A stretch of DNA of 64,000 nt, from the NCBI RefSeq assembly GCF_013391105.1, contig NZ_CP058335.1, positions 2,046,001 to 2,110,000 on the forward strand, given 5' to 3'. Origin of the DNA: Natronomonas salina (GTDB taxonomy: Archaea; Halobacteriota; Halobacteria; Halobacteriales; Haloarculaceae). The notes under the pieces were generated by a model. The model was not told the DNA's origin and did not search any database. It saw only the letters and a program-made list of their open reading frames with translations. Shown here in pieces: positions 28,717 to 57,485 of this stretch; within the stretch, counting starts at the first letter, position 1; each line of letters starts with the position of its first letter. A program made the translations under genes and the position numbers.

Positions 28717-29514
28717 TCAGCCGCGCCGCGGGAGGAACGCCAGGGCGGCGATGAGGAACGCCGAGAACAGGCTGAAGATGATGACGTAGTTCAGCCCGCT
28801 CAGCCGCTGCTGGAAGTACTCCTGGTGGCCGGCCTGCTCCTGGTAGCTGGCGACGTCCTCCGAGAGCATGACTGTCTGGTCGTCGGGGAACGTCGCGACG
28901 TACGTCTGGTTGTCGACGGTGACGTTCTCGCCCTCTGCGAGGGTCTCCGACTGCTCCTCCTCGGTCTCCCAGGTGAGCGCGACCGACTCGCTGGTCACGT
29001 TCTCGGCGGTCTTCGACTCGTTGTCGTGCTCGACGGTGTCGTTCTCGGAGTAGGTCACTTGGTTCGGTTCGGGGAGGTACTCCTCGAGCGGTTCGGTGCT
29101 CCCGTCGCGGTAGCGGACGAACTCGGTCCCGTCCTCGGCGGTGTACGTCTGGTTGTCCACCTCGGAGTCGTTCTGGAGGATGCTCTCGACGTCGAACTCC
29201 TCGGTCAGGCCGAACCGGTCCGGGTCCTCGGCCGGTTCGATGGTGACGTTGTAGCTGGCGTCCTCGAACTCGACGGCCGAGTTGTTGTCCCAGGAGTCCT
29301 CGTTCGAGACAGTCTCGTTGTACACGAGCGAGCCGGACCCGCCCTCCACCTCCACGGTGTAGGTGGTGCCGTTCGTCTCGAACGTATCGTTGTTCTGGTA
29401 CGTCTCGCCCTCCATGTCGATCTCCGGTCCCTCCGCGAGCGCCTGCACGCCGTAGGCACCGGCGGCCGTGACGAGGAAGAAGGCGAGGCAGATCGCCGCC
29501 CATCGTCGTTGCAT
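28717..29514 (-). CDS. Exported membrane-anchored protein with many N-glycosylation sites
   Basis: The 265-residue protein has an N-terminal signal or anchor (residues 1-27) and an acidic beta-rich exterior domain with more than ten N-x-S/T sequons (NDTF, NGTT, NVTI, NQTY). The C-terminal hydrophobic helix ends in LPRRG. No PGF motif is seen. It is the divergent neighbour of the surface-protein array beginning at 29821. Function unknown. Confidence 0.75.
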   Translation of the reverse strand: MQRRWAAICLAFFLVTAAGAYGVQALAEGPEIDMEGETYQNNDTFETNGTTYTVEVEGGSGSLVYNETVSNEDSWDNNSAVEFEDASYNVTIEPAEDPDRFGLTEEFDVESILQNDSEVDNQTYTAEDGTEFVRYRDGSTEPLEEYLPEPNQVTYSENDTVEHDNESKTAENVTSESVALTWETEEEQSETLAEGENVTVDNQTYVATFPDDQTVMLSEDVASYQEQAGHQEYFQQRLSGLNYVIIFSLFSAFLIAALAFLPRRG

Positions 29515-29820: not shown

Positions 29821-30936
29821 ATGACAGACGAGACAATGACGAAGACGTCACTGCGGTCGGTCGCGCTGATCGTCGTCGGCGTGGCCGTCGTCGGAGCGTT
29901 CGCGGCAGTCGTGATCGGTCCGGCCGCCGCAGACCACACCGACTACGAGAACGGAGATTACACGGTCGTACTCCCGCACAACTCGGACCACCTTCCGGGC
30001 AACCAGAACGAGGAGAACGCGAGCATGCAGAACTTCGCGCAGTCTGGCGACGCGATGCGGGAGGCGGGAGCGCCCAACGGCTTCGAGACGCTCGAGTACC
30101 TCGAGACTGGCTCCCCGGAGATCGACTACTCCGGTTGTAGCAGCGCCAACACCGCCGTCTTCGGCGTCGACCGCGGCAACAACAACTCCGGGACCAAGAC
30201 GGACACCGACCTCCTGAAGCACATGAAGGAGTCACGGTTCAAGGAGCACAAGATCGAGGTCGAGTTCTACAGCGAGGACGACCTCGGCGGGAACCCGACC
30301 TACCTCAACCCTGAGGACGCCATCGTCTCCGTGCAGGGTGCGGGCTCCTCGGGCGGCCCCTGCTTCACGATGCCCACCGAACCCGGCTGGTACCAGACCA
30401 ATGGGCTGGTCCGCGGCACCACGGAGGACGGCGAGACCGTAGAGGTCACCTCGGAGTCCCACTACTTCCCGATCTGCGAGGGCTGCCACAACGAGGAGAC
30501 GGCCCGAGAGAAGCTCGGTCCGAAGCCGAGTGCGGACGGCGGTACCACGGACGACGGCGGTGACGAGTCGACGCCGACGCCGACCTCGACCGCCCAGGAC
30601 GACACCGGCGGCGATGGCGACGGCGACGCCACTGCGACGCCGACGTCCGATTCCACCGACGACACGACGGGCGACACCACAGACACGACGGACGATACCA
30701 CCGACGACACCACAGACACGACGGACGACACCACCGACGACGGCGGCGAGCAGACCAGCGGCGACCAGAATACCGACGGGCAGAACGGCGGCGCCGAACA
30801 GAACGATACCGGCGGGAACGGCTCGGCGGGCCAGAGCGACGCCACGCCGACGCCCGGCGGCGGTCCCGGCTTCGGGCCGATCGTCGCGATACTCGCGGTG
30901 CTCGGCGCGGCGCTGCTCTCGATGCGGCGTCGGTGA
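29821..30936 (+). CDS. PGF-CTERM surface protein, type A, copy 1
   Basis: The 371-residue exported protein has a signal peptide (to about Ala37), a globular domain to about residue 235, a Thr/Asp-rich stalk, and a C-terminal sorting signal with PGF followed by a helix and RRR. PGF-CTERM proteins are processed and lipid-anchored by archaeosortase ArtA (family knowledge). Four Cys at 106, 181, 219 and 222 lie in DYSGCS, GGPCF and ICEGC. Shared blocks are DHLPGNQNEE, FGVDRGNNN and PEDAIV. It is closest to the third array gene (32343). Function unknown. Confidence 0.85.
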   Translation: MTDETMTKTSLRSVALIVVGVAVVGAFAAVVIGPAAADHTDYENGDYTVVLPHNSDHLPGNQNEENASMQNFAQSGDAMREAGAPNGFETLEYLETGSPEIDYSGCSSANTAVFGVDRGNNNSGTKTDTDLLKHMKESRFKEHKIEVEFYSEDDLGGNPTYLNPEDAIVSVQGAGSSGGPCFTMPTEPGWYQTNGLVRGTTEDGETVEVTSESHYFPICEGCHNEETAREKLGPKPSADGGTTDDGGDESTPTPTSTAQDDTGGDGDGDATATPTSDSTDDTTGDTTDTTDDTTDDTTDTTDDTTDDGGEQTSGDQNTDGQNGGAEQNDTGGNGSAGQSDATPTPGGGPGFGPIVAILAVLGAALLSMRRR

Positions 30937-31053
30937 ATCCGTCCCCGAGCGGGGCGGACCGGCCGTCTGGTGAGGGCCGTTAGCGGTTGACAGGGATAAA
31001 CGGCCCAACATATCCAGCGTTACCCTTAGGATATTGGTTGGCTATGGACGGCT

Positions 31054-32181
31054 ATGCCCCGCATTCGAGAGTTGAGTGTTACCGTCGTGGCGACGGCCCT
31101 CGTGCTGTCGCTCGCGGCGACGACCACCCTCCTCGGCGTCGGCGTCGCCGGCGCCGCACACCCCGACGACGCACCGGACCTCTCCGAGTACGCCGACTTC
31201 CAGGTGAACTTCCCGAACCCCTCCGACCACTACCCCGGCGACCAGAACCCCGAGGGCGGCAGCATCGAGTACTTCGCCTCCGGCGCCGACGCCTTCCGCC
31301 AGCAGGACGCCGAGGAGGGCGTCTACATCGACCGGATCGTCGTCCACGCCGAGTACGAGGGCGAAGACTGGATCGACTACTCGGCCTGCAGCACCGACAA
31401 CACCGAGTCCTTCGGCATCGACCGCGGCAACGACAACGACGGGACGGAGTACGACGAGGGCCTCGTCCAGCGGCAGAAGCAGGTCGACTTCCGGGACGAC
31501 GGCATCGACATCCAGTTCTACAAGTGGGGGGACCTCGGCGGTGACCCGCCGTACATGGCTCCCGAGGACGCCATCGTCGCCTCCCAGGGCGAGGGGTCGG
31601 CCGGCGGGCCGTGCCTGACGCTGACGAACGAACCCGGCTGGTACCGCATCGCCGCCTACCTGCAGGGGACCGTCGCCGACAACGGCCCCGACCAGCAACC
31701 CTCCGACAGCGCGGGGGAGGTCAGCCTCGAGCTGAACTCCAACAACTACCTCTACGTCTGCGAGTGCGACAGCGAGGAGGAGGCCCGCGAACAGCTCGGC
31801 GCCCCGCCGAACGAACGGTCGGGCGGTCAGGAGACCCCGGAGCCGACCGAGACAGACCCCGGCGGCGACGAAACGCCCGAACCTACCCAGACCGATACCG
31901 GCGGCGACGAAACGCCGGCGCCGACCCAGAGTGGCGGCGGCGACGCGACGCCCGAACCCACCCAGGAGAACACCGGCGGCGACGAAACGGCGGAACCCAC
32001 TCAGAACAACAACGGCGGCGACGGCGGCCAGACCAGCCAGGGCGGTGACGACACCACCGGCGGCAACGGCGGCGACGACACCGACCGGACGCCGACGCCC
32101 GGCGACGGTCCCGGCTTCGGCGCGCTCGCGGCGCTGCTCGCCCTGCTCGCCTCGGCACTGATCGCGCTTCGTCGCGACTGA
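31054..32181 (+). CDS. PGF-CTERM surface protein, type B, copy 1
   Basis: The 375-residue protein has a signal peptide, a domain with DHYPGDQNPEGGSI, DYSACSTDNT, FGIDRGND and GGPCLTL, and then a stalk and a PGF-CTERM end. Cys are at 112, 187, 236 and 238. The last two form CEC (NYLYVCECDSEEEAREQLGA) instead of the type A CEGC. The stalk contains repeated ETPEPTQT-like units. Its nearest relative is the fourth array gene. The 117-base gap before it suggests its own promoter. Confidence 0.85.
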   Translation: MPRIRELSVTVVATALVLSLAATTTLLGVGVAGAAHPDDAPDLSEYADFQVNFPNPSDHYPGDQNPEGGSIEYFASGADAFRQQDAEEGVYIDRIVVHAEYEGEDWIDYSACSTDNTESFGIDRGNDNDGTEYDEGLVQRQKQVDFRDDGIDIQFYKWGDLGGDPPYMAPEDAIVASQGEGSAGGPCLTLTNEPGWYRIAAYLQGTVADNGPDQQPSDSAGEVSLELNSNNYLYVCECDSEEEAREQLGAPPNERSGGQETPEPTETDPGGDETPEPTQTDTGGDETPAPTQSGGGDATPEPTQENTGGDETAEPTQNNNGGDGGQTSQGGDDTTGGNGGDDTDRTPTPGDGPGFGALAALLALLASALIALRRD

Positions 32182-32342
32182 GACCCCCGCGGCCCCTCCT
32201 CCATCGATCCCCGAACGTGGAGCCAATCCCACTCCTGAATATACGTCCGCCGGTTATTGACGGCTCTCGGTAGAAACAACCGGGGAGTTCCGGTAATTTA
32301 ACAAAGGTTTTTACCCTACGAGCTGGAGTTACGTATCAGTTC

Positions 32343-33374
32343 ATGACCAAATACGTTCGATTTAGAAACACCGCTCTGGCGACGGTCGTGGTGCTCGCGA
32401 CGGTCGCCGCGGTGACCGTCGTCGGTGCCGGCGCGCTCGTCGTCGGGACCCAGGAGGCGGCTGCGGCCCACGATAGCGCGGCCAACTACACCGTCACGCT
32501 GCCGAACGAGGACGACCACCTGCCCGGCGACCAGAACCCCGAGGGCGCGAGCATCAAGCACAACGCCGCCGGCGGGGAGTCGTTCGACGACGTCGCCCCG
32601 AACGGGTTCGAGACCTTCGACCGCCTCGAACTCCAGAGCGACCACGTCGACTTCTCGGCGTGTACGAGCGAGAACACTGCCGTCTTCGGCGTCGACCGCG
32701 GTAACAACAACCCCGGCACCCAGACCGACGACAGCCTCCTCCAGCACATGAAGGACTCCACCTTCAGCGAGGACAGCCTCGAGGTCGTCTTCTACGACGA
32801 GGGCGACCTCGGCGGGAGCCCGACCCACCTCAACCCCGAGGACGCCATCGTGGCACTCCAGGGTGCGGGCTCCTCGGGCGGCCCCTGCTTCACGATGCCC
32901 ACCGAACCCGGTTGGTACCAGATCAGCGGGACCCTCGAGGGGACCAACCACGACGGCGAGTCGGTGACCATCGAATCGAAGTCCCACTACTTCCCGATCT
33001 GCGAGGGCTGCCACGACGAGGCCACCGCCGAAGAGAAGCTCGGTCCGGCACCGAGCAAGGAGGGCGGCGACCCCGACCCGACGCCGACGGCGACCGAGAC
33101 GCCCGTCGAGGTGACGGCGACCGAGGAACCCGGCGAGGCCACGCCGACGGCGACCGCCACGCCGGAAGGCGCGACCGGCGGGGACTCCACGGCGACGGCG
33201 ACCGAGGCGTCGGGCGACGAGACGCCGGCGGCACGCGCGACGGAGGGCGGCTCCGCCGGCGGCGCCCAGGGTGACCACCAGGGCACGCCGACGCCCGGCG
33301 GCGGTCCCGGCTTCGACGCGCTCGCGGCGCTGCTCGCCCTGCTGGCCGGTGCGCTGCTGGTCCGACGACAGTAA
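32343..33374 (+). CDS. PGF-CTERM surface protein, type A, copy 2
   Basis: The 343-residue paralogue of the 29821 gene shares GSSGGPCFTMPTEPGWYQ, LNPEDAIV and SHYFPICEGCH nearly unchanged. Cys are at 107, 182, 220 and 223. The stalk is Thr/Glu/Pro-rich and shorter, and the end is PTPGGGPGF plus a helix. A TTTTTACC TATA-like element about 30 bases upstream of the ATG fits a leaderless start, unlike copy 1. Function unknown. Confidence 0.85.
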   Translation: MTKYVRFRNTALATVVVLATVAAVTVVGAGALVVGTQEAAAAHDSAANYTVTLPNEDDHLPGDQNPEGASIKHNAAGGESFDDVAPNGFETFDRLELQSDHVDFSACTSENTAVFGVDRGNNNPGTQTDDSLLQHMKDSTFSEDSLEVVFYDEGDLGGSPTHLNPEDAIVALQGAGSSGGPCFTMPTEPGWYQISGTLEGTNHDGESVTIESKSHYFPICEGCHDEATAEEKLGPAPSKEGGDPDPTPTATETPVEVTATEEPGEATPTATATPEGATGGDSTATATEASGDETPAARATEGGSAGGAQGDHQGTPTPGGGPGFDALAALLALLAGALLVRRQ

Positions 33375-33509
33375 CGCGCGAACCGGCCCTCGAGGGCCGT
33401 GACCGACGCCCCGAGGACCGTCCGAGAACCGAACGCGGATATTTTCGACGCATCCTGACATAAATAGCAGCGAATACACAGCGATATCGTTAGATACGTA
33501 GTAACAAGG

Positions 33510-34586
33510 GTGTGGAGCATGGGACGAAGGGAGATCGACGCGGTGGTGCTGGCGACGCTCGTCACCCTGAGCGCCGTCGCCGGCGTCGCCGCTCTCAGCG
33601 CGGTCGCATCGCCCGTCGCCGCCGACCAGCACACGGTCGACACGGCGACGGACTACACGGACGAGGCGAACTTCACGGTGGCCTTCCCGTTCACGACCAA
33701 CCACTATCCAGGCGACCGGAACGCCGAGAACGGCAGCATCCAGTACTCGGCCGTCGGCGAGCAGGCGATGCGCGAGGTGGACGCCGAGGAGGGTGCCTTC
33801 ATCAGCCACATCGTCATCTCGGCCGACTGGATCGACTACTCGGCCTGCAGCACCGACAACACCGCGGCGTTCGGTATCGACCGCGGCGACGACGACCCGG
33901 GCACGGAGTACGACGAGGACCTCGTCAGCCGGATGAAGGAACCGACCTTCCGCGACGACGGGCTCACCGTCGAGTTCTACAACTGGGACGACATCGGCGG
34001 CGATCCGCCCTACGCGGCGGCGGACGACGCCATCGTCGCCGAGCAGGGCGCCCGGTCGTCGGGCGGCGCCTGCCTGACGCTCACCGACGACCCAGGCTGG
34101 TACCAGGTCCAGGGGTTCATCAACGGCACCGAGGCCGACAACGGTCCCGACCAGCAGCCCTCCGAGGACGCCAACCACGCCGGCATCCTGGCGATGTCGA
34201 ACTACCTGTACGTCTGCGAGTGCGACAGCGAGGCCGAAGCCCGCGAACAGCTCGGCGCCCCGCCGAACGAGGAGCCGACCGGCGGGGAGACGCCGACGCC
34301 CACCGCGACGGAGTCGGGCGAGGACCCCACTCCGACGGCGACCGAGGGCGGCGACACCGGTGCCGACCCGACCCCGACGGCCACCCAGAGCGGCGGCAGC
34401 GGGGCGACGACGACACCCACGGCCACCCAGGGTGGTGACGGCCCCACCCCCACGCCTGGCGGTACAGCCGGCGGCCAGGGCGACGACAGTACGACGCCCA
34501 CGCCAGGTGACGGCCCCGGCTTCGGCGCGCTCGCGGCGCTGCTCGCCCTGCTCGCGGGTTCGCTCCTCGTCCATCGACGCGGTTGA
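33510..34586 (+). CDS. PGF-CTERM surface protein, type B, copy 2
   Basis: This paralogue of the 31054 gene has 358 residues if the GTG at 33510 is used; an ATG at 33519 is the alternative. It shares WIDYSACSTDNT, GGDPPY, NGPDQQPS and NYLYVCECDSEAEAREQLGA with copy 1. Cys are at 113, 188, 236 and 238, and the end is PGDGPGF plus a membrane helix. It is the last of the four-gene array and lies 240 bases before the ABC-transporter binding protein on the same strand. Confidence 0.84.
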   Translation: MWSMGRREIDAVVLATLVTLSAVAGVAALSAVASPVAADQHTVDTATDYTDEANFTVAFPFTTNHYPGDRNAENGSIQYSAVGEQAMREVDAEEGAFISHIVISADWIDYSACSTDNTAAFGIDRGDDDPGTEYDEDLVSRMKEPTFRDDGLTVEFYNWDDIGGDPPYAAADDAIVAEQGARSSGGACLTLTDDPGWYQVQGFINGTEADNGPDQQPSEDANHAGILAMSNYLYVCECDSEAEAREQLGAPPNEEPTGGETPTPTATESGEDPTPTATEGGDTGADPTPTATQSGGSGATTTPTATQGGDGPTPTPGGTAGGQGDDSTTPTPGDGPGFGALAALLALLAGSLLVHRRG

Positions 34587-34826
34587 GCGGCACGCAGCGA
34601 GGGTGCAGCCCTCGAGAGACGACCACCGCGAGTCGCCGACGGACGACCGAAACGGTCCCCGGGTCGTTCTCCCGAGCAATCCATCGACCGCCAATGACGA
34701 CGAGCGGTCCGGAAGCTATCGATTCCGGCCGTTCCGGAACCGGGCGGCAGCCCGTGCTATAGTCTTAAATGCCCGGACAAAACCACCGAAACACACAGGG
34801 GAGTCGATGGTAAGGCACGAACACAT

Positions 34827-36272
34827 ATGGCCGACGTGCCAGAGAACGAACAGCAAGAGGAAAACGAGGGGCGGCTCGACCGGCGTTCGGTCCTCAAGTA
34901 CGGGGGGACCGGCGCCCTCGGCGCCGGGCTCGCCGGCTGCCAGAGCCGCGAGAACCCCCTTCCGGGGAGCAATATCAGGCCCCCCGAGAGCGAGGATGGC
35001 GGCGTTGGCGGTAACGTCAAGGACGCAGAGGGACCCCTGGAGGGCGAGACCTTCAAGATCGGCGTGCTCGCGCCGATGGAGCTCCCTCTCGGAGAATCGA
35101 TGTGGCAGGCAGCACAGATGGCCGCCGAAGAGATGAACGAGGCCGGCGGGCTGCTCGGCGCCTCGGTCAAGGTCGAACTCGGCGACACCGAGGTGTCACC
35201 GGGGAAGGCCCAGTCCGAACACCGGCGGCTCACAAGTCAGGCGGGTTGCGACATGACCGTCGGTGTCTTCCTCGGTTCGGCGTTGCTCCAGACGATGACG
35301 TCGATCGCCAACCAGCAGAAGCTCCACGTGACCACGGCGGCGGCCGACCCCCGCGTCGGGAAGCTGGTCTCGAAGTCCGCAGCCTATCAGCAGGGTGCCG
35401 ACCCCCAAGAAGAGTACGAGAAGTACAAGTACCACTTCCGCGCCGGCCCGATCCACCTGCTCGACCTCGCCGACGCGATGCTTGAGTTCATCGAGGACAA
35501 GAAGGACGAGTACGGCTGGGAGCGAGCCGCGCTCCTGACGGAGGACATCGGCGAGTTCACGCCGTACGCCGACCGGCTCCAGGAGCGGCTCAGCGACGTC
35601 ATCGACGTCCCCATCTCCCAGCGGCCGGGCGGCGTCAGCGATTGGTCGCCGCTCTACAGCGATATCGAGGAGGCAGACTGCGACGTCGCGCTCATCGGGA
35701 TGGCCCTCGGCGGCACCACCGCCGTCAACCAGTGGGCCCAGCAGCAGCGCGACTTCGAGTTCGGCGGCATCCACGTGTTCGCCCAGTCTTTCGAGTACTG
35801 GGAGTCGACCGACGGCAACGTCGAGCACGTCTTCACCATGAACGCGATGACGCCGCAGACGGAGAACACGGACACCACCCAGGAGTTCGTCCAGAACTTC
35901 GTCGACACGTGGGAGAGCGTCCCCATCTACACGGCGCCGATCACCTACGACGCGATCAGCACGATCGAGGAGGTCTTCGCGGCCATGCACGAGGAGGAGG
36001 GTCTCGACGGCACCCCGGAACCCGACGCCGTCATCCCGTACCTCGAGGACATGACCTTCACCGACTCGACCATCCTCGAGGAGGTCCAGTTCACGCCGGC
36101 CGACGCCGAGTACGCCCACGAGCCGCAGTGGACCTCCATCGCCGAGACCGGCGTCCCGGTGTTCCAGCAGTGGCAGATGGACGAGGAGATCCGCGAAGAC
36201 TACGGGACGATGCACTCGTTCTACCCGCCGGAGAACAAGACGGCTGAGAAGACCGAACCGGAGTGGTTGTAA
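34827..36272 (+). CDS. livK: Branched-chain amino acid-type ABC transporter substrate-binding protein (Tat lipoprotein)
   Basis: The 481-residue binding protein has a twin-arginine signal (RLDRRSVLKYGGTG) and a lipobox ending LAGCQ. The mature part is a periplasmic-binding-protein type I fold of the LivK/AmiC class (FKIGVLAPMELPLGESM, AAQMAAEEMNEAGGLLG, ITYDAISTIEEV). It delivers a ligand, likely an amino acid or amide, to the permeases encoded next. The ligand cannot be told from sequence alone. A TATA-like CTTAAATG lies near 34762. Confidence 0.9.
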   Translation: MADVPENEQQEENEGRLDRRSVLKYGGTGALGAGLAGCQSRENPLPGSNIRPPESEDGGVGGNVKDAEGPLEGETFKIGVLAPMELPLGESMWQAAQMAAEEMNEAGGLLGASVKVELGDTEVSPGKAQSEHRRLTSQAGCDMTVGVFLGSALLQTMTSIANQQKLHVTTAAADPRVGKLVSKSAAYQQGADPQEEYEKYKYHFRAGPIHLLDLADAMLEFIEDKKDEYGWERAALLTEDIGEFTPYADRLQERLSDVIDVPISQRPGGVSDWSPLYSDIEEADCDVALIGMALGGTTAVNQWAQQQRDFEFGGIHVFAQSFEYWESTDGNVEHVFTMNAMTPQTENTDTTQEFVQNFVDTWESVPIYTAPITYDAISTIEEVFAAMHEEEGLDGTPEPDAVIPYLEDMTFTDSTILEEVQFTPADAEYAHEPQWTSIAETGVPVFQQWQMDEEIREDYGTMHSFYPPENKTAEKTEPEWL

Positions 36273-36274
36273 CT

Positions 36275-37177
36275 ATGGCAGGCATCACAGGCGCGATACT
36301 GACAGCGACGTTCATCAGTGCACTGTACGCGATCATCGCGATCGGCTTCACGCTGATCTTCGGCGTCGGGGGCGTCCTCAACTTCGCCCACGGCGCCTTC
36401 ATCACCGTGGGGGCGTTCACGGCGATGATCGTCTCGAGTAGCTCGGGGCTCGACCTCCCGATAGCCGTCGGCCTCCTGGCCGGCACCCTCATGGGCGCGG
36501 TCATCGGCGCCGGGACCTACCTCGGCGTCATCCGCTACGTCCGCAAGCGACCGGTGACGGTCCTGATACTCACGTTCGTCATCGGGTTCTTCATCATGTA
36601 CGCGCTGCGGATCCTGGCGAACGACATCATGAACGTCAACGCCCTCCAGATCCCCGTCTCGCCGGTGATCAACGAGGGTCGCTTCGGCATCGGCGCGAGT
36701 ACGCTCAACAACCTCTTCATCTTCGTCTCGTCGTGGGTCCTCATCGGGGCGCTGATGTGGTTCGTCAACTATACGCGGACCGGCCGCGCCATCATCGCGG
36801 TCAGCCAGAGCGACAAGGGCGCCTCGCTGGTCGGCATCAACGCCGAGAAGATCAACGTCATCACGTGGACGCTGGCGGGCGCCTTCGCCGGCTTCGCCGG
36901 CGTCCTGCTGGCCGGCCGCCTCGGCGGCGGCAGCTGGCTGATGGCCATCGACCCGCCGGCGCCGCTCGTCCTGTCGTTCGCCATTGTCATCCTCGGCGGA
37001 CTCGGCTCCATCAAGGGCAGCGTCGTCGGAGCCTACATCATCGGCTTCTTCGAGACGTTCACGGTCAGCTTCGTCCCGAACGGCTCCCAGCTCGCGGGCA
37101 TCTCGTCGCTGGCGCTACTACTGGTGTTCCTGATCGTGAAACCCGAAGGACTGTTCGGTAGGGAGGCTGCAGAATAA
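36275..37177 (+). CDS. livH: ABC transporter permease, LivH family
   Basis: The 300-residue membrane protein has the LivH signature GVGGVLNFAHGAFITVGAF and the EAA-like loop region near DPPAPLVLSFAIVILGGLGS. It starts at the ATG at 36275, two bases after the binding-protein stop; an earlier in-frame ATG overlaps that gene. It shares one base with the next permease gene (TAATG). Confidence 0.92.
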   Translation: MAGITGAILTATFISALYAIIAIGFTLIFGVGGVLNFAHGAFITVGAFTAMIVSSSSGLDLPIAVGLLAGTLMGAVIGAGTYLGVIRYVRKRPVTVLILTFVIGFFIMYALRILANDIMNVNALQIPVSPVINEGRFGIGASTLNNLFIFVSSWVLIGALMWFVNYTRTGRAIIAVSQSDKGASLVGINAEKINVITWTLAGAFAGFAGVLLAGRLGGGSWLMAIDPPAPLVLSFAIVILGGLGSIKGSVVGAYIIGFFETFTVSFVPNGSQLAGISSLALLLVFLIVKPEGLFGREAAE

Positions 37178-38409
37178 TGGCTACGCAAAACCCACTCGAC
37201 GGCGACGTGCAGAAGCGACGCAAGCAGGCCGTCAAGGAGCGGCTCAAGTTCGGCAACCTGCCGCTGCGCCACCGGCTCGGCGCCTACGGGTTCGTCATGC
37301 TGGGGCTGCTGCCGGTGATCCTGCAGCCCTCGGAGCTGCTCAACTTCACGTACGTCCTGTTCCTGATGATGTTCGCCATCAGCTGGGACGTCGTCTCCGG
37401 CTACACCGGCCAGCTGAGCTTCGGGCACGCGTTCTTCTTCGCGCTCGGCGGCTACGGCACGGCCGTCATCACGACCCAGCACAACATGCCCATCTTCGTG
37501 GGCATCGCGGGCGCGACGCTCCTGGCCGCCATCGGCGGCGTCCTCATCGGCGTCCCCGCGCTCCGGCTCGACGGGCCGTACCTCTCGCTGGTGACGCTCA
37601 TTGCACCGCTGCTGCTCTTCCAGATGTTCGTCCTCTTCAGCGAGGGGCTGCCGTTGCTCGCCCCGCAGGGGCTCGGCGGCACCGGCGGCCTGACCGTGCA
37701 GCCGCCGCAGCTTGTCAGCATCGGCGACGGCGCGTTCATCACCGTCGAGACGACGATGATGGAGTCGCTGGGGCGGTACTACGCGGCCTTCATCGCGCTG
37801 CTCATCGTCTTCGGGGTCTGCTACGCCGTGACCCGCTCCTCCGCGGGGAGCGTCTTCACCGCCATCCGCGAGGACGAGGACGCGGTCCGCTCGGCCGGCC
37901 TCAACCCCGCGAAGTTCAAGATCTTCGCGTTCGTGCTGGCGGGCGCCGTCGGCGGCTTCGCCGCCGCCGTCTGGATGCACGTCGGCCCGTTCGGCTACCC
38001 CAACACCGAGAACCTCTTCGGCCCGGGGAAGATCGACCTCAGCATCGAGGTCATCGTGATGGCCATCCTCGGCGGCATGGGGACCATCGTCGGCGCGGTC
38101 GTCGGCGCGCTGCTGTTCGCGGCCACGACCGCGCTCGTCGGCTGGCTTGACTTCACCATCCCCGTGCTGGGACTGGAGTTCTCCGCCCTCTCGCCGCTGC
38201 CGGAGTTCCTGCTCGCCATGCTGACGCTCGTGTTCATGCCGGAGGGCGTCGTCCCCCGGAACATCAAGGACGGCCGGAAGCTGCTGGCCCGCTACCGCGG
38301 CGAGGCGCCGCCGGAGCCGGCCGACGCCGACGGCCGGTCGGCCTCCGAAAGCGTCGTCTCGAAGTACCGCGACGAGATCGAGGAGATCATCGGAGGTGAC
38401 AACAGATGA
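37177..38409 (+). CDS. livM: ABC transporter permease, LivM family
   Basis: The 410-residue permease has the LivM motif VVSGYTGQLSFGHAFFFALGGYG and IREDEDAVRSAGLNPAKFKIFAF. It has a 30-residue basic N-terminal extension and a long C-terminal cytoplasmic tail. The stop overlaps the ATPase start by four bases (38406-38409). Confidence 0.93.
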   Translation: MATQNPLDGDVQKRRKQAVKERLKFGNLPLRHRLGAYGFVMLGLLPVILQPSELLNFTYVLFLMMFAISWDVVSGYTGQLSFGHAFFFALGGYGTAVITTQHNMPIFVGIAGATLLAAIGGVLIGVPALRLDGPYLSLVTLIAPLLLFQMFVLFSEGLPLLAPQGLGGTGGLTVQPPQLVSIGDGAFITVETTMMESLGRYYAAFIALLIVFGVCYAVTRSSAGSVFTAIREDEDAVRSAGLNPAKFKIFAFVLAGAVGGFAAAVWMHVGPFGYPNTENLFGPGKIDLSIEVIVMAILGGMGTIVGAVVGALLFAATTALVGWLDFTIPVLGLEFSALSPLPEFLLAMLTLVFMPEGVVPRNIKDGRKLLARYRGEAPPEPADADGRSASESVVSKYRDEIEEIIGGDNR

Positions 38410-39194
38410 GCACCGAACCGGAACGCGCCGCGGTCGACGACCGGACGTACGGTCCCGACGACGGGATCCTCGTCGCAAAGGACCTCCGCAAGGAGTTCGG
38501 CGGTCTCGTCGCCGTCGACGACCTCTCCTTCGCGGTGCAGGAACAGGAGATCCTCGGCTTCATCGGCCCGAACGGCGCCGGGAAGTCGACGACGTTCAAC
38601 TGCGTGACCGGCACCTACCCGCCGACCGACGGCACGGTCTACTTCAAGGGCCGCGACGTCACCGGCATCCCCGCCCACGAGATGGTCAAGGAGGGGATGG
38701 CCCGGACGTTCCAGGAGTTCGCCCCGCTGGAGGACCGGACGGTCGTCAAGAACGTCGAGCTCGCGCTGGCCCCCGACGAGTTGTTCACGCTGTCGGGGAT
38801 GGGCGGCGAGACCGAGCGGCTGGCCGAGGAGATCTGCCGCCGCGTCGGCCTCGGCGAGGTCCTCGACCAGACGCCCTCGGAGCTACCCCACGCCGGCATG
38901 CTGAAGCTGGAGCTGGGCCGCGCCATCGCGACCCAGCCCGACCTGATGCTCGTCGACGAGCCGTTCGCCGGCCTCTCCGGCAAGGAGGTCGAGGAGCTCT
39001 CCGAGGTGATGCGCTCGCTGCGCGACCACGGCATGACGCTCATCGTCGTCGACCACAACATGCGCGGCCTGCTGAACCTCATCGACCGGGCGTTCGTCAT
39101 CCAGTTCGGCTCGAAGATCGCCGAGGGGAGCCCCGACGAGATCAAGAACGATCCCCAGGTCCAGGAGGCGTACCTCGGAGGTGACGAGATATGA
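38406..39194 (+). CDS. livG: ABC transporter ATP-binding protein, LivG family
   Basis: The 262-residue ATPase has Walker A GPNGAGKSTT, Walker B LMLVDEPFAGLS, and the LivG C-terminal HNM/LIDRAFVIQFG region. The ABC signature reads ELPHAGMLKLELGRA rather than the usual LSGGQ, a known LivG-type variation but more divergent than most. It is coupled to livM and livF by four-base overlaps. Confidence 0.92.
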   Translation: MSTEPERAAVDDRTYGPDDGILVAKDLRKEFGGLVAVDDLSFAVQEQEILGFIGPNGAGKSTTFNCVTGTYPPTDGTVYFKGRDVTGIPAHEMVKEGMARTFQEFAPLEDRTVVKNVELALAPDELFTLSGMGGETERLAEEICRRVGLGEVLDQTPSELPHAGMLKLELGRAIATQPDLMLVDEPFAGLSGKEVEELSEVMRSLRDHGMTLIVVDHNMRGLLNLIDRAFVIQFGSKIAEGSPDEIKNDPQVQEAYLGGDEI

Positions 39195-39967
39195 GCGCGC
39201 CGACGGACGACGAGGCCGACCGCTTCGAGTTCCAGTCGACGTCCGACACGACACAACAGCGGCCGACCGTCCTCGAGGCCGAGGACCTCCGGGTCTCCTA
39301 CGGGAAGGTCACCGCGCTGCGCGGCCTCGACCTCGAGGTGCGGCAGGGCGAGATCGTCTCGCTCATTGGCCCCAACGGCGCCGGCAAGACCACGTTCGCG
39401 AACACCGCCTCGGGTTTCCTCGACTACCAGGGGAGCGTCCGCTACCGCGACCAGGAGGTCGCCACGGTCGGCCAGACCGAACTCGTCGAGCAGGGGATGA
39501 TCCACTGCACCGAGGAGCGCGACCTCTTCGGCTACCTGGACGTCGAGGACAACCTCGAACTCGGCGGCTACCTGCAGGACGACGCCGTCATCGAGGAGCG
39601 CAAGGAGTTCGTCTACGACCTCTTCCCGCGGCTCGACGAGCGCCGCGAGCAGAACGCCCGCTCGATGTCCGGCGGCGAACAGCAGATGCTCGCCATCGGC
39701 CGCGCGCTGATGGGCGACCCCGACCTCCTCATCCTCGACGAGCCGACGCTGGGGCTGGCACCGGTCATCCTCCAGGACATCGCCGAGGCGCTCGACCCCA
39801 TCGTCGAGCAGGGCGTCACGGTGCTGCTCACCGAGCAGAACGTGACCTTCGCGCTCAAGCACGCCGACCGCATCTACCTGCTCGAGAACGGCGAGGTCGC
39901 CAAGGAGGGCACCCCCGAGGAGCTCAAGGGCGACGACTACATCCGGGAGTCCTACCTCGGCGGGTAA
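39191..39967 (+). CDS. livF: ABC transporter ATP-binding protein, LivF family
   Basis: The 258-residue second ATPase has Walker A GPNGAGKTTFANT, the signature ARSMSGGEQQMLAIGRAL and Walker B LLILDEPTLGLAP. It ends the five-gene operon, which is complete: binding protein, two permeases and two ATPases. The acidic N-terminal 30 residues are a typical haloarchaeal extension. Confidence 0.93.
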   Translation: MSAPTDDEADRFEFQSTSDTTQQRPTVLEAEDLRVSYGKVTALRGLDLEVRQGEIVSLIGPNGAGKTTFANTASGFLDYQGSVRYRDQEVATVGQTELVEQGMIHCTEERDLFGYLDVEDNLELGGYLQDDAVIEERKEFVYDLFPRLDERREQNARSMSGGEQQMLAIGRALMGDPDLLILDEPTLGLAPVILQDIAEALDPIVEQGVTVLLTEQNVTFALKHADRIYLLENGEVAKEGTPEELKGDDYIRESYLGG

Positions 39968-39974
39968 CGACCCG

Positions 39975-40979
39975 TCACTCCCCCGGCTCTCGGTCCCCGT
40001 TCTCTGGCACGTTCTCTCGTTCTCCGCTCCGATCCCGGAGCGACGGCACCGCGACCGCGTCCTGGAGGCCGCGACCGGTCGCGCGACCGTAGGCGACGAC
40101 GGCGACGCAGCCCAGCAGCGTCGCGGCCAGCCCGAGCACGCCGCCCTCCGGACCGAACGCGCCGCCGTGGACGAGTTCGCGACCCGACGTCGAGGTCTCG
40201 AGGAGCCGGACGCCGAGTTCCAGGCCGCTCACCGGGACGCCGAGCAGGACGTGCGTCAGGTTCCAGGTGACGTGGAGGCCGACGGGGAGGCCCAGCCGGT
40301 CGGTGTAGACGTAGCCCAGGCCGAGCAGGACACCGGCGAGGGTGATGGTGACGACGGCGAGGGTCGTCGCGCTGGGGTTGCGGCCGTGCAGCAGGCCGAA
40401 CGCGACGCTGGAGAGCGCCAGCGCCGCGACGACCGCGACCCGCCGGTCGACGAAGGCGGTCAGGCCCTCGGCCAGGTTCGTCAGCAGGTACCCCCGGAGG
40501 AGCAGTTCCTCGTAGACGCCGACCGCGACCATCGTCGCGCTCACCAGCGCCAGCCAGGCGGGCAGCGAGTAGCCGGCGGGGCCGCGGGGGTCGAGCGTCG
40601 CCTCGTAGACGCCCACCGCGAGACCGGCGGCGTAGGCCCCTCCGACGAGGACGACGCCGAGGGCGGCGCCGACCGCGAGGTCGCGCCACCAGACCGCGTC
40701 GAGCGACAGCCCGAGGTCGGCGACCCGCCGGTGGTCGAGGTACCGGCCGGCGACGAGAACCGCGGCGGCGACCGCGAGCCCACTGCCCGCCAGCGCGACG
40801 AGGACGCCGGCCAGTCGCGGGCCGTCGGCGTCCCCGGGGTCGAGCGCGAGGCCGGCGGTCACGAGGACGACGGCGACCGAAAGGTTCACGAGGAGGAACA
40901 GGAGGCCGGCGACGAGCAGACGCCACGGCGTCCGCAGCCGGCCGGTCGGCGCGCGGAGCAGCGACCGGGAGCGGGACAT
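39975..40979 (-). CDS. CPBP-family intramembrane metalloprotease
   Basis: This 334-residue CAAX-protease/bacteriocin-processing (Abi) family protein has about eight spans. The catalytic motifs are VYEELLLRGYLL (EExxxR), FGLLHGRNP and the HVTWN region, which provide Glu and His metal ligands. Eukaryotic relatives cleave prenylated proteins; targets in archaea are largely unknown. The ATG at 40979 (MSRSRSLLRAP) is preferred to an earlier frame extension. It lies between the ABC operon and the fifth Cys-motif surface protein. Confidence 0.85.
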   Translation of the reverse strand: MSRSRSLLRAPTGRLRTPWRLLVAGLLFLLVNLSVAVVLVTAGLALDPGDADGPRLAGVLVALAGSGLAVAAAVLVAGRYLDHRRVADLGLSLDAVWWRDLAVGAALGVVLVGGAYAAGLAVGVYEATLDPRGPAGYSLPAWLALVSATMVAVGVYEELLLRGYLLTNLAEGLTAFVDRRVAVVAALALSSVAFGLLHGRNPSATTLAVVTITLAGVLLGLGYVYTDRLGLPVGLHVTWNLTHVLLGVPVSGLELGVRLLETSTSGRELVHGGAFGPEGGVLGLAATLLGCVAVVAYGRATGRGLQDAVAVPSLRDRSGERENVPENGDREPGE

Positions 40980-41056
40980 AGCCGGCGGTTCAGCCGGCCC
41001 CGCCATCAAACCTGCCGTCGAAAGTTTTTATCGGGTACCGGCGCCACGATATTTCG

Positions 41057-42007
41057 ATGAAGCCGCGCACGACCGCCGCCCTCGCCCTCCTGGTCCTCGT
41101 CGCCGCGTCGCTCGCCCTCCTCGCGGCCCCGGCCGCCGCCGGTCACGGCGAACAGCAGGCCGACTTCACGGTCGACCCGGATAGCCACGACACCGGCGCG
41201 GAGTCGGTCAGCTACGAACTGACCGTCGAACTGGCCGACTCCGTCGACCGGGCGCCCACCGTCGCCTACCCGGACCGGATCGTCTTCGCGGTCGAGGGCG
41301 CGAACCTCGACGCCTGCGAGTCGGGCGGCTTCTTCGGGGGGCCGAACTACGAACTCGGCGTCAATCAGACGACCGCAGACGGCTATCAGTTCCAGCCGTA
41401 CGCGGTGGGCGACGTGACCTGGGACGGCGAGGCCGTCGTGTTCACGTTCGACGACAGCGACAACGACGACCAGCCGAACTACGGCCAGGGCGACAGGCTC
41501 GAACTGCGCCTGGACTCCTGCGTGGCGAACGCCGGCGACGACGGCTGGTACCTCGGGGGCGTCAACGTCACGGGCGGCTCCCGCACCGACCGGACCGTGA
41601 CGTTCGGCCGCCTCGTCCCCGCCCACTACTTCGGTATCTGTGACGGCTGCCGGTCGGACGCCGACGCCCACGAGTCGATGGGGGCCCCGCCGTCCGAGCA
41701 GACGCCGACCCCGACCGCCACCCCGACGCCGGCGGTCACGGAGACCCCGACGCCCAACGGACTGCAACTGCCGACGGAGACCTCGACGCCGGTCCGGGTC
41801 GGATCGCCGACCGGCACGGCGACGCCGCCGCCGAACGAGACGCAGACGTCCACCGGGACGGCTATCGACGGCGCGGCGGGCGACGGCGACCCCGCGGAGC
41901 GGGACCCCGCCGACCCGGAGGTCTTCGGGATGAACCCCCTGGCCGTCGTGGGGATGATCGCCCTCGCCTCCCTCGGCCTCGCGGCCCTCGGCGCGCGGCG
42001 GGTCTGA
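41057..42007 (+). CDS. Diverged Cys-motif surface protein with membrane anchor
   Basis: The 316-residue exported protein keeps the hallmark C-terminal block HYFGICDGCRSDADAHESMG, close to type A of the array at 29.8-34.6 kb, and CVANAGDDGWYLGG, equivalent to the Cys-GWY block. Cys are at 87, 155, 195 and 198. The N-terminal half differs, and the end has a membrane helix but no PGF motif. A TTTTTATC TATA-like element sits about 30 bases before the ATG. It is likely a distant relative of the array. Confidence 0.78.
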   Translation: MKPRTTAALALLVLVAASLALLAAPAAAGHGEQQADFTVDPDSHDTGAESVSYELTVELADSVDRAPTVAYPDRIVFAVEGANLDACESGGFFGGPNYELGVNQTTADGYQFQPYAVGDVTWDGEAVVFTFDDSDNDDQPNYGQGDRLELRLDSCVANAGDDGWYLGGVNVTGGSRTDRTVTFGRLVPAHYFGICDGCRSDADAHESMGAPPSEQTPTPTATPTPAVTETPTPNGLQLPTETSTPVRVGSPTGTATPPPNETQTSTGTAIDGAAGDGDPAERDPADPEVFGMNPLAVVGMIALASLGLAALGARRV

Positions 42008-53983: not shown

Positions 53984-54048
53984 CTGTCGTGTCCTTCCGC
54001 TCGACGGCCCGTAGTTATCACCTTCCTACTGGATCTGTACGCCGCCCG

Positions 54049-54117
54049 CTGATACGGGTGGTCTCGACACCGCACTCGGTGTCGTCCGTCCCCGAGACCG
54101 AGCGGCGCGCGTATCAG
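54049..54117. other. Nested inverted repeats (three-tier stem) at the island edge
   Basis: Three perfect stems nest inside one another: CTGATACG/CGTATCAG (54049-54056 with 54110-54117), GGTCTCG/CGAGACC (54060-54066 with 54093-54099) and ACACCG/CGGTGT (54067-54072 with 54077-54082) around the loop CACT. This is more than expected by chance in a noncoding stretch. It could be a structured RNA or a DNA recombination element, since it lies between an O-antigen ligase gene and a broken integrase. Confidence 0.55.
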
Positions 54118-54222
54118 AGAGATACTCTCGCGGGTTGTGATCGTCTGGAAGGAGCGAGGACCGCTGAAGGCGAGCGGCGACCGAAGGGAGCCGAGCGCGA
54201 AAGGAGTCTTCCTGCGGGGACG

Positions 54223-54813
54223 AGACCCCGTGGAAAGCGTGGTGAGCGAACCGTACATCTCGTAATTGCTGTGCCCTACCTCCAGCGGTGCCTCAACGAG
54301 CACCCCGGCGACGGCGAGGATTACCTGTGGTCGAAGCTCTCCTCGCCCGATCGGCCGTCGTACAACACCTTCCTCGGATACTTCAAGAACGCCGCTGGCC
54401 GCGCCGGCGTCGACAAGGCAGTGACGCCGACGAACTTCCGAAAGTCGAACACGCGCTGGCTCGTCAACCTCGGATTCAGTCAGGCCCGGATCGAGGATCG
54501 ACAGGGTCGGCAGCGTGGGAGCGAACACACTCGGAGGTACCTCACGCGGTTCGGCGAGGATTCGAATGAACGCACGTACGCGCGACTCCACGGGAAGGAC
54601 ACCCCGCAGAATCGTGATCGCTGTATGTGGTGTCACTTCGCGCTCTCGCATGACGCCGCGAGTGAAGCAGAAGCCAAGCAGGAAGCGGCCCTGCGAGCGG
54701 CTGCGGAACTCACCGAGGAGGTGGATATCGATGAATCGGAGGCTGCCGTCGCGCTGAACGCGTTGATCGAGGGCCGTGTTCAGTCGGCGCTTGATCGGCA
54801 CCGTCATTCCTGA
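54223..54813 (+). pseudogene. Tyrosine recombinase/integrase, C-terminal remnant
   Basis: About 190 codons of the C-terminal part of a haloarchaeal XerC/D-like integrase remain (RTVHLV, then AVPYLQRCLNEHPGDG, TPTNFRKSNTRWLVNLGF and EHTRRYLTRFG with the likely catalytic Tyr). The N-terminal domain and first catalytic Arg are absent; upstream there is only GC-rich noncoding sequence. Only one CxxC pair (CMWC) remains of the zinc knuckle usually present. A GTG at 54271 could start a shortened product, but a working recombinase is unlikely. Confidence 0.75.
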
Positions 54814-54971
54814 GCCTCCAGTTCGTCGAGAATCGCAAGTGCGTGTTTGGCGTCCTCGCTGAGTTCGTTGTCGAGCTCAGCGAGTGCCTCGAGTACCTCG
54901 CGGTGCGGACCGAGGGTCTCCTGGACGTGCTCTTCGAGTTCACGATGGTGGTTGTGTTGCTGGAGTGCCAT
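54804..54971 (-). CDS. Small acidic helical protein convergent with the integrase remnant
   Basis: This 55-residue protein (MALQQHNHHRELEEHVQETL, continuing acidic and helical) has a good haloarchaeal composition and a likely coiled coil. It overlaps the integrase remnant by ten bases at the 3' ends. Its closeness suggests a shared history with the element. Function unknown. Confidence 0.55.
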   Translation of the reverse strand: MALQQHNHHRELEEHVQETLGPHREVLEALAELDNELSEDAKHALAILDELEAQE

Positions 54972-55383
54972 CGAAGCAGTGGTGCTCGGATAGGCTCCGA
55001 ACGGGCCATGCACTGGTGTCCTTGACAGCGGGCAGTTAGACACGATTGCTACCCTATCGGGTGTCACGGTGCAGCTGCGAAGGATGGGAACCTCTCGGGC
55101 CCCTAGTTGATGTCATATCGTCGAATGAATCGATTTGGCCAGATTGACAGCGATGGAAGATGGGGGCCTGCTATCCTCGTCATCGTTTTCGAGATATCGC
55201 TACAGGAGGGTACGCAATCGATGTATGAGGGGATGTGAATCGGGCCCATTTGGCTTTCTGGGCCTTAGCACGGTCGCGAAGACCGTGTTGTTCTGGTCGT
55301 CGCTTGCTCGAGTTCCGTGGTGAGAGTTTCATAGTCGTTCGGTGGGGTGATTTGCTCAGTGATTGGTAGCGGGGCTATGCCAC
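54972..55383. other. Gap with no supported gene
   Basis: Mixed-composition noncoding DNA. On the minus strand a 50-codon basic frame (55180-55332, MKLSPRNSSKRRPEQHGLRD) and an overlapping frame with PLPITEQITPPNDYETLTTE look weakly protein-like, so this could be a decayed gene. Neither is strong enough to call. Confidence 0.35.
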
Positions 55384-55503
55384 CTACGTCTGCTTGCCCC
55401 GGTTTTCTGATATAAATCTGAGGGCGTGTTCTTGCCACTCATATTGGAACCCGGTGTTTCTGTCATAGTCAGCTGGCAGGCGAATACTGATTGTCACGCT
55501 CAT
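55384..55503 (-). CDS. Possible 39-residue small protein
   Basis: A 39-codon frame from ATG at 55503 encodes MSVTISIRLPADYDRNTGFQ followed by an aromatic-rich, acidic/basic mix ending in FISENRGKQT. The composition is protein-like, unlike the other frames here. No domain and no clear promoter are seen. It may be a small functional protein or the tail of a decayed gene. Confidence 0.3.
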   Translation of the reverse strand: MSVTISIRLPADYDRNTGFQYEWQEHALRFISENRGKQT

Positions 55504-55926
55504 CTATGACATCGAGCATTGGGAGAGAATCTGGCCCAGGTCGACCAGACATCTCAACCCCGAGGAAGAACAGCCCTGCCACACTATCGGCGTCAAGAAA
55601 GACCCCTTCAACGACAATCCATCAACTCTACGACATTCACCTTGTCCTCAGAAGTCCCCTCCGCAGCATTCGGATGCCTCACATCTACTTCTAGTCTCCT
55701 GTCTATTCCCTATTCGCCAGCCCTAGCGTAGCTGTTCCAATACTAGTGGCATTCTTCAGGCTCTTCGTAGGCCATAGATTTCGGTGGCCATTCGTATTAC
55801 AGACTCACATCTTGTTGGCAACAAGCTCACTCCGGCCCTTTATTTTTGAATACCAGTTTTAGACCTTACTTACATCCATCACTAGGGATATTACTGAAGG
55901 TGGTAGCGATTCTCCATCCATTCAAG
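55504..55926. other. Gap with no supported gene
   Basis: About 420 bases. The open frames on the plus strand have Ser/Pro/Thr-rich, unconvincing products. An AT-rich stretch at 55835-55865 probably serves as promoter region for the zinc-ribbon gene at 55927. Confidence 0.4.
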
Positions 55927-56067
55927 ATGTCGAGCCTGGCAGAGTATATCGAATGTCTCAACTGCGGATTTGTCACGTACTCGAAGAACGCCTCTTCCCC
56001 TGAACCGAGAAAGTGGGAGGCGTGCCCGGGTTGTGGTTCGATAGAATTTGAGTTCACAGGGCACTGA
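55927..56067 (+). CDS. 46-residue zinc-ribbon protein
   Basis: The protein starts MSSLAEYIECLNCGFVTYSK and later has CPGCGSIEFEF, giving two CxxCG knuckles 27 residues apart, a classic small zinc ribbon. An ATG in frame further upstream (55846) would add a hydrophobic segment not expected for this class, so the shorter start is preferred. Haloarchaea carry many such mini zinc proteins, mostly of unknown role. Confidence 0.65.
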   Translation: MSSLAEYIECLNCGFVTYSKNASSPEPRKWEACPGCGSIEFEFTGH

Positions 56068-56356
56068 ATTGGAGCGGGGTGAATCAAGACTCGAATTGGC
56101 GCTTCTGAGAAACCGAACAGCAAGGGGTAGTGATGGGGATGCGAGTACTGCTGCTTCGCTACCTGCGGTGTATCCGGGGAGTTGATCAAAAAAAGATACC
56201 TCTACTGTTGGATAGATCCGGTCCGGGATGGAGATGGAATTGACAGTCCTGATTCGACTCGTTGTTTTCTTGTTCTGAGAACGGCGATATAGGTATAAGC
56301 AGATTGAGGGTGTTGTGACGAACGACGGAGAAGGTTAATCCCTTTTCGTTGGTGTA

Positions 56357-56476
56357 ATGATGAAAACAGGATACATCAATTGTGATTGTGGTGGGGAAGT
56401 ATCGTTCACCGGGACAGACAACAGATCCGAGTGCGAGTGCGGTCGCAAAATACGCTATCACTGTGACCGAACTTAA
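56357..56476 (+). CDS. 39-residue zinc-ribbon protein
   Basis: This 39-codon gene starts with tandem ATG codons (56357 or 56360). The product MMKTGYINCDCGGEVSFTG continues to CECGRKIRYHC, with two CxCG metal pairs and an additional Cys near the end. The size and knuckles match archaeal mini zinc-finger proteins. The role is unknown. Confidence 0.6.
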   Translation: MMKTGYINCDCGGEVSFTGTDNRSECECGRKIRYHCDRT

Positions 56477-56604
56477 TGCGGCCACCTCTAAGCTGTAGCA
56501 GAGGGTGATTACCTAGTGGAGCGTGGAAACGCTCGTTGGAGGGGCGAAAGTAGGAGTGACGGCCTGGCAGGTCAAGAGAGTGGATTCCTCATCTGGTGGT
56601 AAAC

Positions 56605-56946
56605 TCAATTTTCCTCTGGGTGTTCGAGCGGGGCAAGCACACCCAATAATCCTTCAAGGATCGTTGGAGGGTCCATGTACCGAACCATCCCAGTCCGTTC
56701 ATCGTACTCGATGCAGCCGGCATCTCGAAGCCGATTGAGGTGATTGTGCCGAAACTCCATGATGAGTTGCTGAAGTTCGTCGTCGGTTATCTCATCGATG
56801 GGTTTCTCTTCGCTCCAGGCGACGACCTGCCGAGCGAGCATTTCGATCTCTGCCTCGTCCTCCGCCTGGAGGTAGTAAAGTGCGAGGCGGCGGTCGTGGT
56901 CCGCTAGCGCGCGGAGTATGTCGTCAACGAGTGCAAAACTAGCCAT
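56605..56946 (-). CDS. DUF7344-like winged-helix regulator
   Basis: The 113-residue protein contains ALVDDILRALADHDRRLALY, DDELQQLIMEFRHNHLNRLR and DAGCIEYDERTGMVRYMD, the helix-turn-helix and wing of DUF7344 proteins. A TATA-like TTATACTAG for this strand lies 15-30 bases upstream of the ATG at 56946, favouring that start over the longer frame (57120). It is related in fold to the gene at 4615. Confidence 0.75.
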   Translation of the reverse strand: MASFALVDDILRALADHDRRLALYYLQAEDEAEIEMLARQVVAWSEEKPIDEITDDELQQLIMEFRHNHLNRLRDAGCIEYDERTGMVRYMDPPTILEGLLGVLAPLEHPEEN

Positions 56947-57485
56947 TTGGTTATTCCTTGCTAGTATAACCGGTCCGGGATTATTTTCCTTTCGGTCAGA
57001 GAATATCATAACGTCATACATATTACTGGAAGTTGATAAAAGGCGCTCGGTGTCAATTAAAACTCGTACATCCGCAGACGGCAACGAGTAGTACTCATGA
57101 CTCCCTGAGCCACTGCCCACAGGCCCCTGAGAATACTCGCAGGAACGATTACTCGACGGTGCTGTTGGTGTCCTGAGGGCGGTGCCACAGGTTACGAGGA
57201 CTGCATCGGCGACGTTGGCCGATACAATGGTCTCAGAAAGACGGCCAATGGTTGTTACTGGCAGATGATCGGGATTGGCCGCCGATTCTCTCCGTCACTG
57301 GGGGTAATGACTCAAATGGTAAAGCACCTAGAACCACTCCGATTTACGTCAAACGAGATAAAACTAAGAACTGCTCTGCGTGCAGTGGAGACAGCTATCT
57401 TGGATGGGAGAACAATGAGCGATTGCCCCCTCGGGATATCGGGGGGCCTCTAGAGGAACGACACTAATCGGTCGCGAGGGGAAAA
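56947..57485. other. Intergenic region of about 540 bases
   Basis: It includes an open but unconvincing stretch on the plus strand (57150-57453), which has Trp/Cys-containing but low-quality protein character and could be a decayed gene. The minus-strand promoter of the DUF7344-like gene is at its left end. No RNA gene or repeat is visible. Confidence 0.35.

Follow-up and report, generated by a model that had tools for sequence, protein, structure and literature searches.

Predicted cysteine-motif surface proteins associated with a Liv-type importer in Natronomonas salina and other haloarchaea

Surface proteins that collect a nutrient for an importer are exemplified by the Isd system, in which haem is picked up by NEAT domains and then delivered to IsdE (PMC7815599). 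In the archaeon Haloferax volcanii the substrates of archaeosortase were found to be processed and lipid-anchored (PMC7157517). Among the COG0683 binding proteins of Rhodopseudomonas palustris whose ligand was unlike the predicted one, very few answered to leucine, isoleucine or valine, the same proteins binding fatty, dicarboxylic and aromatic acids as well as other amino acids (PMC3223731). The present work deals with a stretch of 64,000 nucleotides (the window) from Natronomonas salina (contig NZ_CP058335.1, positions 2,046,001 to 2,110,000), a haloarchaeal genome of 3.75 Mb in a single contig (genome G000; genomes and loci of the comparison are designated G and L). It carries five genes for predicted surface proteins with a common cysteine motif (the Cys family) on the two sides of an ATP-binding cassette (ABC) importer of the Liv type. 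The association of the Cys family with Liv-type importers is strong in the genomes compared here. To our knowledge, the way in which bulky or hydrophobic nutrients pass the haloarchaeal surface layer (S-layer) to reach their importers is largely unknown.

The first four Cys genes form an array on the forward strand: A1 (29821..30936, 371 amino acids, with a possible alternative start ATG at 29836), B1 (31054..32181, 375 amino acids), A2 (32343..33374, 343 amino acids) and B2 (33519..34586, 355 amino acids from its ATG, GTG 33510 being an alternative start). Two types alternate in the order A-B-A-B, with the motif CEGC in type A (genes 1 and 3) and CEC in type B (genes 2 and 4). The importer operon follows on the same strand. 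It comprises the genes of a Liv-type substrate-binding protein (SBP; 34827..36272, PF13458) with a twin-arginine signal and lipobox (RR...LAGC), a LivH-type permease (36275..37177, PF02653, E 2.6e-39; its start may be GTG 36263), a LivM-type permease (37177..38409, PF02653, E 1.4e-34), a LivG-type ATPase (38406..39194, PF00005 and PF12399 (BCA_ABC_TP_C)) and a LivF-type ATPase (39191..39967, PF00005; the best NCBIfam match is LivF, under its equivalog cut-off). The fifth, diverged Cys gene (Cys5, 41057..42007, forward strand) lies beyond a reverse-strand gene for a CPBP/Rce1-like membrane protein (39975..41009, PF02517, E 2e-16). This layout agrees with a preliminary description of the locus, which had reported a four-gene Cys array stopping 240 bp upstream of the binding protein gene, a diverged fifth member separated from the operon by the CPBP gene only, and a complete transporter. 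The domain matches found here (PF13458, two BPD_transp_2 and two ABC_tran proteins, in the order SBP-H-M-G-F) confirm the completeness. The earlier list did not include the gene named here up28717 (28717..29514), which is on the reverse strand, divergent from the array, and accompanies the cluster almost constantly in other genomes. It encodes a secreted protein of 265 amino acids, rich in Asn-glycosylation sites (12 NxS/T) and with a C-terminal membrane segment, for which no significant Pfam match was found.

Co-location was assessed in 11 near-complete genomes by comparing the positions of all PF13458 binding proteins and all Cys family members with a limit of 10 kb. Within this distance of a binding protein are found 62 of the 105 members and 19 of the 57 clusters. 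Random placement of the clusters gives an expectation of 2.8 and did not reach 19 in any of 20000 trials, a figure that overstates independence because related genomes share ancestry. In the Haloglomus genome G414 alone, each of four clusters is at a liv-type binding-protein gene of its own (approximate binomial p 0.001). Of the 146 genomes compared in the taxonomic family, 18 carry the Cys family and 17 an orthologue of the window's binding protein (threshold E<=1e-95), all 17 being among the 18. Conversely, 128 of the 129 genomes without the orthologue also lack the Cys family, the exception being a genome that is 72% complete. The named carriers include Natronomonas gomsonensis and Natronomonas sp. 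CBA1123.

The gene neighborhood varies in its architecture but keeps its parts. The Natronomonas group (G001, G002, G010, G016, G017) displays the order uL16-like gene, up28717, array of 2-5 copies, SBP-LivHMGF and Cys5, with the orientation [<up28717][Cys array>][SBP-LivHMGF>][Cys5>]; we take the first gene of the cluster to be the archaeal uL16/L10e. In Haloglomus and Halorarius the orientation is [<LivFGMH-SBP][Cys array>][up28717>]. This divergent organization, in which 2-5 array copies precede up28717, was identified in Haloglomus halophilum, H. irregulare, Halorarius litoreus and the metagenome-assembled genome QS_4_70_19, and again in three more genomes (L214, L215, L216), while L213 appears to be H. 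halophilum once more. Genome G033 has a single Cys copy together with up28717, divergent from the operon. Homologues of up28717 with 36-57% identity adjoin the cluster in L046-L050, L056, L058, L096, L098, L099, L122-L125 and L213-L216, and orthologues of Cys5 lie downstream of the liv genes in L046-L050, L096, L098 and L099. The CPBP gene occupies the same position in L050, L096 and L098, but in L046-L049 LivF and Cys5 are too close together to accommodate it; as it is present in only some genomes of the Natronomonas group, its product is probably not an essential part of the system. The signal and lipobox of the binding protein are conserved in the alignment of its homologues (A6).

Cys family members also recur at liv operons of other types. 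In a second type of operon, with a binding protein 31-32% identical to that of the window, 1-4 members come straight after LivG; five genomes show this (L057, L210, L211, L212, L226). A third type has a member at L220. A tree of 74 core domains places Cys5 in a clade of its own whose members are nearly all liv-linked, and it separates the Natronomonas A and B copies from the Haloglomus copies, which indicates that the arrays expanded separately beside the operon. In G155, from another taxonomic family, a lipoprotein gene (L160, 10254-11114) with a weakly similar FGIDRG domain but no cysteine pairs is divergent from a related liv operon. The preliminary description had reasoned that a family scattered without liv genes in related genomes would make the link accidental. 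Put to the comparison above, the link does not look accidental: co-location, co-occurrence, company kept through rearrangement and recurrence at other liv operons all speak for it.

A signal peptide and a shared core are present in all five Cys proteins of the window, the core having four cysteines that are conserved (C...C...CxC or CxxC). In the array proteins (343-375 residues) the signal peptide is followed by a core of ~200 residues, a Thr/Pro/Gly/Asp-rich linker and a PGF-CTERM tail. Compared with the first array copy, the others show 38-56% identity over their whole length and 44-64% in the core, genes 1 and 3 being the most alike pair. Cys5, with an identity of 24-26%, retains the four cysteines, a GWY motif and the C-terminal signature Y..(I/V)C..C..A.E..G..P; the family profile recovers it with an E value of 2.5e-61, which is partly circular because the profile includes Cys5. 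No variation occurs at any of the four cysteines in the alignment A5. The single aligned member without C3 and C4 (L054) has lost the two together, and these observations suggest that the core is held by two disulfides.

Predictions of surface anchoring differ between the array and Cys5. The PGF-CTERM model (TIGR04126, NCBIfam cut-off 24.5 bits) scores 30.2, 35.0 and 32.9 bits in array genes 1, 2 and 4, and 23.0 bits, slightly under the cut-off, in gene 3. Cys5 has no TIGR04126 match in the NCBIfam scan and ends with a tripartite C-terminus of non-PGF type. Its orthologues (L046-L050, L096, L098, L099) share a tail composed of (F/L)G(V/M)(D/N)P..VVG, a membrane segment and A.R(L/V), which is possibly a variant sorting signal. 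The N. salina genome codes for archaeosortase A, with two TIGR04125 matches (E 5e-97 and 4e-91). Two neighbouring archaeosortase A genes are found per genome in G000 (G000:C1:578898-582459) and likewise in G002, G027, G033 and G414, five genomes that all have the Cys family.

No family matched the core domain above its cut-off in Pfam, NCBIfam, PADLOC or PHROGs, and no solved structure is related to it by sequence. A match of DUF7685 to array gene 1 (E 0.009, under its cut-off) was set aside, as was a weak PHROG match limited to the Thr/Pro-rich tail of Cys5; an identity as a defence system was rejected. The AlphaFold2 model of the B2 core (window 33642-34292, built from 38 sequences) has a mean predicted local distance difference test score (pLDDT) of 89 and is rich in beta-strands, folded as a single immunoglobulin-like (Ig-like) beta sandwich. 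The nearest solved folds retrieved with Foldseek and VIA-align, mostly surface binding proteins, were TTHA1873, staphylococcal and fungal adhesin domains, pilins and YcnI, all with Z ~8; no paper was found on TTHA1873, the top match. The model does not show the bilobed fold of substrate-binding proteins, and a profile comparison of the Cys proteins with the binding protein gave a probability of 2%. Weak profile matches in other haloarchaea (~24-38 bits; L161, L162, L169-L179) are PGF-CTERM proteins or lipoproteins with a similar stretch and without the cysteine pairs; these would be remote relatives at most.

The interpretation that we favour, and to which we give close to an even chance, is that the Cys proteins are anchored ligand-capture proteins which feed the adjacent Liv-type importer. 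They would be Ig-like domains stabilised by disulfides and carried on Thr/Pro-rich linkers, held at the surface by C-terminal anchors of the archaeosortase type. At the S-layer or inside it they would pick up a ligand of low solubility, for which a fatty, dicarboxylic or similar carboxylic acid is the likeliest candidate, and pass it on to the lipoprotein binding protein exported by the Tat route, from which it would reach LivHMGF. The tandem types A, B and Cys5 could act at different depths of the S-layer or on different ligands. What the analysis shows is the content of genes, the conservation of the domain, the predicted signals for anchoring, the predicted fold, and a neighbourhood that is both conserved and recurrent; surface display in vivo, the disulfides, ligand binding, its hand-over and the ligand class are steps that we infer.

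The ligand class was approached through the operon and its relatives. The preliminary description had spoken of an amino acid-type importer; that the operon encodes an importer stands, but the amino acid label is doubtful in view of the acyl-CoA genes at related operons and of the R. palustris COG0683 ligands. The NCBIfam scores of the operon point to the LIV/urea/amide superfamily and are far below the Liv and Urt equivalog cut-offs, so that they do not fix the substrate. Related haloarchaeal liv operons, with binding proteins 30-38% identical to that of the window, are flanked in most loci fetched by genes for an AMP-binding ligase, enoyl-CoA hydratase, acyl-CoA dehydrogenase or short-chain dehydrogenase/reductase (examples checked with Pfam). 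An acyl-CoA dehydrogenase gene follows Cys5 in G001, G002 and G010, and acyl-CoA genes stand beside the orphan members L052 and L102. Taken together with the R. palustris ligands, these neighbours make a hydrophobic or carboxylic acid a better guess than an amino acid, and a fatty or other carboxylic acid the likelier ligand as judged from gene context. The solved structure PDB 4n03, a distant match of the binding protein and reportedly a palmitate complex, was not counted as evidence on the ligand. A model of the binding protein, built from seven sequences, had a pLDDT of 49 and was not used.

Several observations weigh against a capture function coupled to the importer. The ligand class derives from the neighbours of relatives, the window operon itself having no catabolic gene directly adjoining. 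Each array gene has a separate intergenic region, an arrangement that does not imply transcription as one unit. The Fisher test of co-occurrence (2.7e-21) is uncorrected for phylogeny and is open to the effect of shared ancestry. Genomes G011, G013 and G014 have up28717, the operon and Cys5 with no array beside the operon (G007 was left out of this judgement for its short contig). Furthermore, 43 of the 105 members (~40%) lie more than 10 kb from any liv-type binding protein, and binding proteins similar to that of the window have no Cys gene nearby in L217 and L218; neither part strictly needs the other. The structural matches at Z ~8, finally, appear to reflect a generic Ig-like arrangement.

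This last point bears equally on the alternative that fares best, which we nevertheless hold to be unlikely. The Cys proteins would be adhesins or parts of the surface coat, comparable to the Ig domains of microbial surface components recognizing adhesive matrix molecules (MSCRAMM), that bind a food polymer or particle; the importer would take up small products, and the Cys proteins would pass nothing on to it directly. The nearest folds listed by Foldseek and VIA-align include staphylococcal clumping factors, UafA, Candida Als adhesins and pilins, the Thr/Pro-rich linkers and surface anchors fit this function, and many members lie away from transporters. The folds are however generic, and the specific, recurrent adjacency to liv-type binding proteins exceeds what a general adhesin would need.

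A somewhat smaller probability is assigned to a role in docking or organising the binding protein and importer, or in sensing the ligand for them, by holding them in the S-layer or by signalling and without carrying a ligand. The retention in the cluster of up28717, secreted and membrane-anchored, is expected of a scaffold, and Cys5 orthologues remain with the operon where the array is missing (L096, L098, L099). The repeated expansion to 2-5 diverged copies suits a diversity of ligands better than a single scaffold, though, and no signalling domain was seen in the proteins.

Metal binding is improbable. A metal such as copper would be held by a mature N-terminal His and the CxC/CxxC cysteines, as in YcnI, and the Cys proteins would protect or mature other surface proteins. 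In the structural comparison YcnI chains rank near the top (Z 8.0-8.3, with the lowest root-mean-square deviation). Of 68 members, 38 have a His no more than 6 residues from the cleavage site predicted for them, as have 29 of 182 other secreted proteins of the same loci, the baseline being drawn from secreted-looking proteins of the fetched loci only and cleavage sites being placed by a crude signal-peptide rule. This crude placement tells against the His argument, as do the several members without an N-terminal His. No metal genes were found at the liv clusters, and L054 persists without both CxC cysteines, which fits a disulfide as well. An accidental linkage is unlikely: that ancestral neighbours were kept without functional coupling, as the restriction of the Natronomonas presence pattern to a few clades and the 38 of 57 clusters not near liv genes could indicate, is the least probable account of all because the parts stay together in genera that differ in order and orientation, distant liv operons carry members and none of the 20000 random placements matched.

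Members distant from liv genes have recurrent neighbours of their own. One Cys clade, seen in several genera (L055, L059, L105, L110, L115, L166, L228), has an aldo-keto reductase gene as its neighbour, and an ABC-2 type exporter adjoins it in some genomes. Another clade (L054, L108, L225) has genes for a FecCD permease and a Peripla_BP_2 binding protein at a distance of a few kb; in G002, G027 and G414 it lies ~6-12 kb from the archaeosortase genes. Elsewhere in the window, at 54000-64000, the G+C content drops from ~0.70 to 0.51-0.57, which suggests an acquired island.

In the libraries and literature searched, the coverage of the latter being partial, no description was found of the Cys family or of its tie to Liv-type importers. 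The family thus appears undescribed, and we group it with the accessory surface proteins known from other ABC importers. With the HAAT/Liv importers (LivJKHMGF, UrtABCDE) the operon shares a PF13458 binding protein, two PF02653 permeases and two PF00005 ATPases. It differs in reaching no equivalog cut-off and in being flanked by predicted anchored surface proteins, and we know of no canonical Liv or Urt operon with such proteins at its flanks. The signal peptide, Thr/Pro-rich linker and PGF-CTERM tail are those of haloarchaeal PGF-CTERM surface proteins (TIGR04126, including the anchored binding proteins of TIGR04281), from which the Cys proteins are set apart by a core without a Pfam or NCBIfam match, whose predicted structure is one beta sandwich rather than an SBP fold. 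YcnI (DUF1775), a copper-binding Ig domain, resembles the core in fold (Z ~8) with no Pfam match, and the N-terminal His is common but not universal in the Cys family. The R. palustris COG0683 lipid-binding proteins RPA3723/RPA3724, encoded beside pimFABCDE, are likewise "branched-chain amino acid" binding proteins by class and have genes of acyl-CoA metabolism nearby, which in our case are found at the related operons (PMC3223731). No surface accessory proteins were reported in that system, and the window operon lacks adjoining catabolic genes.

The closest likeness in organization is with the Isd/NEAT haem relay of Gram-positive bacteria (IsdA/B/C/H and IsdE-IsdF), where multi-copy Ig-like surface proteins, anchored by an enzyme, cooperate with an ABC importer and its lipoprotein binding protein. 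Anchoring in the Cys family is predicted, and would use PGF-CTERM and an ArtA-dependent lipid anchor instead of sortase and peptidoglycan; the importer is of the Liv/HAAT type and not a haem importer. Homology to NEAT was rejected, since scanning Pfam to a limit of E 1 gave no NEAT match and comparison by sequence gave no relative of solved structure, and the likeness is one of working principle. We put forward tentatively, and as rather unlikely in its full extent, an archaeal relay in which several archaeosortase-anchored Ig-like chaperones, placed at differing depths in the S-layer, would pass a hydrophobic carboxylic acid stepwise to the Tat lipoprotein and the Liv importer, other branches of the family serving other importers (the second and third liv types, perhaps the FecCD type). 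By analogy, such a relay would be a counterpart of Isd/NEAT that arose independently.

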